Positions 28,249 to 28,468 of a DNA stretch of 64,000 nt are shown piece after piece. Every line of letters begins with the position of its first letter. Within the stretch, counting starts at the first letter, position 1. The position numbers were made by a program, and so were the translations under genes. The notes beneath the pieces were generated by a model, which was not told where the DNA came from, made no database searches, and saw only the letters and a program-made list of their open reading frames with translations. This DNA is from Thiomonas sp. FB-Cd (GTDB taxonomy: Bacteria; Pseudomonadota; Gammaproteobacteria; Burkholderiales; Burkholderiaceae_C): the NCBI RefSeq assembly GCF_000733775.1, contig NZ_JPOE01000002.1:1116001-1180000 (forward strand), written 5' to 3'.

Positions 28249-28299
28249 CTTGTATGTTTAAACCAGATCAGCGCGGTGCAGTCTAATCACCGTTGAGGT

Positions 28300-28455
28300 G
28301 ACCGGACCGGATCGTGCAGCCTGAAACGCCCTGGAGTCGGCGAGCGTGCTCGCCAGCTCGTGGCTGAGTCGATTGCGCACGGACCCCGTGCTGGTCTTCC
28401 TGACGCCCGAACGGTTCGTTGATCGGCGTTTCGCCTGCTCGCATGCACAGGCAAG
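28300..28455 (+). ncRNA. Predicted IS110 bridge RNA
   Basis: Target loop: outer stem CGTGC (28313-28317)/GCACG (28377-28381), inner hairpin GGCGAGC/GCTCGCC (28339-28345, 28348-28354). The internal loop holds CGCCCT (28327-28332), identical to the left half of the real target plus core, and GGCTGAG (28362-28368), exact complement of core plus right half CTCAGCC. Donor loop: stem CCTG (28399-28402)/CAGG (28448-28451), hairpin GGCG TTT CGCC, with ACGGTT (28411-28416) matching the element's right end. The 5' boundary is approximate. Confidence 0.7.
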
Positions 28456-28468
28456 GGATATGAAGACC

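Follow-up and report, generated by a model that had tools for sequence, protein, structure and literature searches.

How does an IS110-group element come to lie at one precise position inside the transposase gene of another insertion sequence? We addressed this question in a 64,000-nucleotide stretch of the genome of Thiomonas sp. FB-Cd (the window; contig NZ_JPOE01000002.1). A first-pass annotation, made from the letters alone, had proposed that the leader of the element encodes a bridge RNA whose guide segments match its own insertion site. Our analysis supports this proposal, through co-variation of guides with insertion sites and through a conserved fold.

Window positions 28251-29452 are a complete IS110-group element with a CT core, which splits an IS630 transposase gene. 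The element has a long non-coding left end (218 bases ahead of the ATG at 28469) and a short right end (15 bases from stop to core). Its recombinase carries the DEDD RuvC-like and Transposase_20 domains (PF01548, E 2.8e-23; PF02371, E 5.7e-20), and the only PDB sequences that it matched at E<=0.001 were IS621 (8wt6) and ISCro4 (9t56), each with E 1.1e-34. Its GID, EATG, KTDxxDA and SGSS segments align with IS621 in an alignment read by eye; the identity of the catalytic serine is taken from the available text of PMC11208158. The element is one of five copies in the host genome, and three of these (L003, L004 and L005) are identical to each other across the element. No near match to it was found in the plasmid records. 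An insertion-sequence cluster lies beside it, with further IS630-type (DDE_3/HTH) and IS1595-type transposase at 26495-27634, 30004-31128 and 31428-32102. The features of the locus are collected in Table 1.

Table 1. Features of the IS110-group element and its surroundings, in window positions.
Feature	Positions	Strand	Basis or remark
IS630 arm, DDE_3 part of transposase	27702..28250	-	domain matches; outer end approximate
Left copy of CT core dinucleotide (target side)	28249..28250	+	CGCC-CT/TGTATG; single CT in empty IS630 copies
IS110-group element, 1202 bases (TGTATG...CACGGTTA)	28251..29452	+	one of five copies in the Thiomonas sp. FB-Cd genome
Predicted bridge RNA	28279..28468	+	covariance model 168 bits, E 1e-44; copy itself among the model's 38 sequences
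Left target guide CGCCCT (core included)	28327..28332	+	identical to left target; co-varies at -3..-6, 71 sites
Apical hairpin of target-binding loop, GGCGAGC/GCTCGCC	28339..28354	+	fold and leader alignment
Right target guide GGCTGAG (complement of CTCAGCC)	28362..28368	+	co-varies at +5..+7, 63 sites with right flank
Presumed target-loop handshake base U	28369	+	could pair donor -3 A after strand exchange; position by IS621 analogy
5' arm of donor-loop closing stem, GGTCTTC	28393..28399	+	partner 28462-28468; 99.2% of cells paired, 2 pairs changed on both sides
Left donor guide ACGGTTC; consensus ACGGTTA = element's right end	28411..28417	+	exact in 47/49 distinct elements; window copy an exception
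Right donor guide AT-(GC)-ACAGG against CTTGTAT, 2-nt bulge	28443..28451	+	ACAAG in 69/71; ACAGG only in window copy (L001) and L002
Donor-loop handshake base	28452	+	C in window copy and L002; G in L003-L005, pairing target -3 C
3' arm of donor-loop closing stem, GAAGACC	28462..28468	+	presumed end of bridge RNA
IS110 recombinase, 322 aa (PF01548 DEDD + PF02371)	28469..29437	+	domain and PDB sequence matches
TTGACT in right end, -35-like box	29434..29439	+	17 bases from left-end TATGTT once circle forms; from sequence only
Right copy of CT core	29453..29454	+	junction sequence and empty sites
Other IS630 arm, HTH part	29455..30003	-	runs into TAA stop = last three bases of IS110; outer end approximate

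The insertion site could be read from copies without the element. In a partial census of IS630 (40 of 70 candidate places scored, 20 loci fetched), six close copies in the host genome carried an empty site with a single CT, as CGCCCTCAGCCC in L009, L014, L015 and L017 and as CGCCCTCAACCC in L011 and L012. The site GCGCC-CT-CAGCCC, which the first-pass annotation had only reconstructed, is therefore real. CT at both junctions and a single CT in the empty site were seen directly for the five copies and the empty IS630 copies. In L011 and L014 the uninterrupted gene is a single open frame, 355 residues long in the piece examined, and the IS110 site lies directly ahead of its HWGDET motif. Two further empty close copies, L013 and L016, have 7 bases missing at the site. 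This shorter allele, which also forms the right flank of the IS110 copy L002, lacks one GCCCTCA repeat unit exactly at the IS110 target, and the 355-residue frame is disrupted in L013 and L016. More distant IS630 copies of the host (L018-L025, 81-84% identical) have similar letters at the site, for example GCGCCCTCGGCC in L018; the coding stretch to which the guide is directed is thus fairly conserved. The guide matches the transposase coding sequence just ahead of HWGDET, so that this genome should offer the element several places to insert.

Three of the five host copies (the window copy, L003 and L004) lie at CGCC-CT-CAGCC in IS630. L005 is outside IS630, at CGGC-CT-CAGCC with one mismatch on the left, and its uninterrupted locus is present in two genomes of the same genus (L168 in G004, CCACGGCTT-CAGCCTTTGCAG; L169 in G010). 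L002 occupies the IS630 allele without the 7 bases on the right, CGCC-CT-GGCGC, where the left side matches perfectly and the right side poorly; its right flank can be explained either by recombination between copies or by insertion into a site that already matched poorly on the right.

The repeated use of one site would say nothing about targeting if a single IS110 insertion had been copied as a passenger, by IS630 transposition or by gene conversion. The IS630 copies do look mosaic, and the arms around L003 and L004 are the same at all but 1 of about 1090 aligned bases, so these two probably represent one shared insertion that moved together. However, pairwise comparison of the arms of the window copy, of L003/L004 and of L002 gives 23-30 differences in about 1090 bases, and the sequences next to these elements belong to different alleles (GCGCC, CCGCC and the 7-bp shorter right flank), suggesting three backgrounds. 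In addition, L005 carries an element identical to L003/L004 at a place outside IS630. We consider passenger spread an unlikely account of the repeated site.

We also looked for sites that the element could have used. The genome holds 12 unoccupied exact matches to the 11-base pattern CGCCCTCAGCC, including 4 in empty IS630 copies, compared with 2 for the reversed control pattern. The idea that a perfect 11-base match suffices for insertion was rejected on this count; such a match is not sufficient by itself.

Next, we examined the leader as a structured RNA. All the letters that the first-pass annotation had quoted are present in it: CGCCCT (28327-28332), GGCGAGC/GCTCGCC (28339-28354), GGCTGAG (28362-28368), ACGGTT (28411-28416) and CATGCA (28442-28447), together with the CGTGC/GCACG stem around the target loop (28313-28317/28377-28381). 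The consensus fold of 38 aligned leaders, a subset of the 71 elements described below from which near-identical ones were omitted, consists of a 5' hairpin followed by two stem-loops with internal loops. After the RNAalifold pairs 74/81, 139/173 and 140/172 had been removed by hand, 98.7% of cells were paired in the 33-pair fold, compared with 22-48% in slid control versions, over which the fold has the advantage that its pairs were taken from the same alignment. Changes on both sides were seen in 12 pairs, against 5.7 +/- 1.0 after shuffling (0/500 shuffles reached this number).

A covariance model of these leaders was then run over 48 sources. Of 28 distant-relative loci, 25 matched it at E<0.01, whereas L136, L137 and L140 did not; because L104 and L131 share one leader, there are fewer than 25 independent matches among these. 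The search of homologues for a conserved fold thus yielded both compensatory changes and distant matches. The model found nothing in four further relative loci without a recognised left end (L115, L099-L101), and the 15 IS630 control loci gave no match at E<=1 either. Within the window it gave one strong match, at the leader, and two others at noise level (E 0.65 and 0.92). Folding of the single leader 28251-28460, which excludes the 3' arm of the closing stem, was no better than that of shuffled sequences (z -0.91; 37/200 equally good), and a scan of the window with Rfam 15 at the gathering score gave no match, where we do not presume that Rfam has an IS110 bridge RNA family.

The fold also bears on where the recombinase gene begins. 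Since the predicted bridge RNA extends to the closing stem at 28462-28468, the reading frame most likely starts at ATG 28469; several relatives have no ATG at the place of 28460. A bridge RNA ending before ATG 28460 was considered and rejected, because the closing stem reaches 28468.

If the internal loop of the first stem-loop reads the target, its guides should change together with insertion sites. Relatives were collected by a scan of genome contigs (79 loci, with the best 80 of 184 relatives kept) and by searches at genus, family and order level; a class-level search of 369 genomes at E 1e-80 brought in only two more. Among 130 loci examined, 32 were without a recognised left end, 15 without a parsed loop and 12 were duplicate sites, leaving 71 distinct sites with 33 guide types, 63 of them with a right flank. 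The parser demanded a CTT left junction, an ACGGTT(A/G)CT right junction, a left target guide ending in CT and a right target guide ending in GAG-T. These demands fix the core, the GAG of the guide and the T after it, as well as CT at both junctions, throughout the 71-site set, while the variable positions tested were free. Guides were shuffled among types 5000 times.

On the left (-3..-7), agreement of sites with their own guide was 0.641 against 0.373 +/- 0.038 in permutations (0/5000; 71 sites, 33 guide types), and on the right (+3..+7) it was 0.908 against 0.674 +/- 0.040 (0/5000; 63 sites). By position, the co-variation was limited to -3..-6 on the left and +5..+7 on the right, with no clear signal at -7, -8, -9, +8 and +9; at -7 most guides have A and 21/56 targets have A. 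The comparison of loop with target across related copies, as the first-pass annotation had advised, thus came out positive on both target sides. It did so with one vote per guide type (0/5000) and after removal of near-duplicate flanks (55/60 sites kept; 0/5000). Leaving out the four host-genome sites of the window element changed little overall, with -6 and +5 each reached by 3/5000 permutations. The window guides fit their site at 7/7 variable positions and the other 32 of the 33 guide types at 5 or fewer, which bears out the earlier view that the match exceeds chance.

These results speak to the classic alternative, in which the protein alone reads the target as a site-specific recombinase, the leader regulates expression and the loop matches reflect coincidence or history. 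Part of the specificity is indeed independent of RNA variation, since the CA after the core is nearly constant on the right (61/63 at +3 and 61/63 at +4) and the base at +8 is G or C in 61/62 sites. A protein-only reading is nevertheless contradicted by the joint change of guide and target at seven positions over 33 guide types, which none of the 5000 permutations matched. Common descent is not the source of this co-variation, because the sites are mostly unrelated host sequences (5/60 dropped as near-duplicates). Furthermore, recombinases 91-96% identical to that of the window but with other guides (L027, L028, L040 and L043) used other sites. We regard the protein-only alternative as highly improbable.

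Not every site matches well. On at least one side, 15/71 sites had one variable match or fewer, among them L105 owing to a cut-off left flank, and the worst were L119, L094, L047 and L050. The same loops at unrelated sites would have spoken against guidance, and here the outcome was divided: 3/5 host copies stand at perfect sites, whereas L005, L002 and L119 are at imperfect ones. L119, from another genus, has a recombinase 98% identical to that of the window element and the same guides, and it matches poorly on both sides (GATGGTCT/CTCACTTC). We read such sites as relaxed specificity or as later recombination of the flanks, rather than as absence of guidance. In Burkholderia cenocepacia NCTC13227, pairs of copies have only one flank in common (L064/L071 on the right, L068/L069 on the left), which suggests recombination between copies, and recombination of this kind can produce false mismatches.

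The base at +8 (window 29460), just outside the guide, was G in 31, C in 30, A in 1 and T in 0 of 62 sites (binomial 2e-10 at an assumed 0.66), compared with a G+C of 0.50-0.84 at other positions outside the guides within 30 bases on each side. After near-duplicate flanks were removed it was C in 29, G in 24 and A in 1 of 54, and G or C was kept even at L002, L094 and L119, whose sites match poorly. Pairing does not account for this, since the guide base opposite +8 is U in 69/71 elements, nor is avoidance of pairs with the near-constant U the cause, since T at +8 is avoided like A. The preference is apparently not set by RNA pairing. In IS621 numbering +8 is position 15, adjoining position 14, where according to the available text of PMC11208158 wedge residues of the recombinase open the duplex. 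We tentatively suggest, at slightly less than even confidence, that G or C at +8 is a requirement read by the protein or clamping the duplex, loosely comparable to a PAM, which would bound where these bridge RNAs can aim. A G/C preference at position 15 does not appear in the text of PMC11208160 and PMC11208158 that was available, with figure logos outside that scope, and it may already be known.

We then turned to the second loop, which in the first-pass annotation bore ACGGTT, matching the right end, and CATGCA, pairing with TGTATG with one wobble. The first match stood in part: ACGGTT does correspond to the right end of the element, but the guide in relatives is the seven bases ACGGTTA, for which the window copy has ACGGTTC. 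In 49 distinct elements the right end was located with a pattern that left four of the seven bases open; 13 elements in which it located no right end were excluded. The left donor guide equalled the element's own right end in 47/49 (35 ACGGTTA, 6 ACAGTTG, 5 ACGGTTG and 1 ATGGTTG), the exceptions being the window copy and L092. These states are few and follow clades, so they weigh less than the target test. The CATGCA pairing proved to be in the wrong register and was rejected, as its leading C is unchanged in elements whose end is TGTATC; the guide is instead AT-[GC bulge]-ACAGG, facing CTTGTAT. Across 71 elements the flanks of this right donor guide are nearly fixed (AT in 70; ACAAG in 69, ACAGG in 2), while its two middle bases vary (GC 50, GT 16, TC 3, TG 1, TT 1). 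The available text of PMC11208160 describes an IS621 right donor guide in which nine RNA bases pair discontiguously with seven donor bases, and that of PMC11208158 two bases flipped out; the family of the window element resembles this, with nine RNA bases against seven donor bases and two unpaired.

The base following ACAAG was assigned as the donor-loop handshake position from IS621 (PMC11208158, in the part available). It pairs with target -3 in 61/71 sites, against 34.9 +/- 8.0 in permutations (0/5000). The corresponding base of the target loop is T in all 71 parsed elements because the parser required T. In six more distant elements examined by eye (L111, L125, L128, L141, L143 and L147) the donor base is G and not A, and the target-loop base is then C, as handshake pairing would demand.

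Compared with the other four copies, the window copy alone has A to C at 28417 (left donor guide) and G to T at 28423 (apical stem), and it shares two changes with L002, A to G at 28450 (right donor guide, where a wobble remains at the core) and C in place of G at 28452. Its handshake pair is lost, with C against C. Judging from these letters, donor recognition by this copy is expected to be weaker, which raises the possibility that it is decaying and non-autonomous, moved if at all by the RNA and protein of copies such as L003-L005. The four donor-loop changes favour this view. On the other hand, the reading frame is open, the ends and target loop are intact, the change at the core still permits a wobble, and many members of the wider family have C at the handshake position. 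We see decay of the window copy as a serious possibility, a little short of an even chance.

Together, the site, the copies, the conserved fold, the co-variation of target guides and handshake base and the match of donor guides to the ends were observed here, and an IS110-group element with a bridge RNA that guides it to its target is, we are confident, the best explanation of the whole. For RNA expression, the circle, catalysis and strand exchange we infer the course of events from IS621. Like IS621, the element would move as a circle. Circularisation would join TTGACT of the right end to TATGTT of the left end, forming a putative sigma-70-type promoter; in 44/49 distinct elements the joined ends read TTGAC-N-17-TAT(G/C)TT, and those of the window element TTGACT-17-TATGTT. 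The available text of PMC11208160 reports that the IS110 circle drives the RNA, and the promoter-like junction found here agrees with that report. The junction promoter would drive a bridge RNA of ~190 nt from the left end. The first internal loop would pair with both target strands, the left target guide with the bottom strand of the left side, from -6 to the CT core, and the right target guide with the top strand of the right side, from the core to +7. The second loop would pair with the element's own joined ends, the left donor guide with the right end and the right donor guide with CTTGTAT, leaving two of its bases bulged out. At the CT cores the recombinase could then exchange strands, assisted by the handshake bases.

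The element is close to IS621 as described in the available text of PMC11208160 and PMC11208158. Both have the bridge RNA, predicted in the window element, in a long left end, with the order 5' stem-loop, target loop and donor loop; both have strand-opposite guides overlapping a CT core and a handshake base; the joined ends of the window element would, as in IS621, give a promoter-like junction; and their recombinases are of the DEDD/Tnp type, with E 1e-34 between them. They differ, as far as that text goes, in the right target guide (7 nt here, 4 in IS621) and in the left target guide, whose signal in the window family is confined to four bases and the core. Also unlike IS621, the window element has its target in IS630 for 4/5 copies, and its family shows the strong G/C bias at +8. 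The recombinase of ISCro4 (PDB 9t56) is equally similar (E 1e-34), a likeness known from chain name and sequence match alone. The IS1111 group (e.g. IS4321/IS5075, which target the inverted repeats of the Tn21 family) comprises IS110-family relatives that also insert into mobile elements, but according to the available text of PMC11208160 they have the RNA in a long right end and long sub-terminal repeats, whereas the right end of the window element after the stop is 15 bases. That the element adds to the known IS110-group bridge RNA systems, and is not a new kind of system, is well supported.

This bridge RNA subfamily, with its naturally varied guides and many separate insertions, makes the pairing rules of IS621 checkable on natural data, including the 7-base right target guide, the short effective left target guide and the co-variation of the handshake base. 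The G/C position beside the guide is one that reprogramming designs may need to take into account. The locus also provides an example of an apparently RNA-guided element sitting within the transposase gene of an insertion sequence that outnumbers it.
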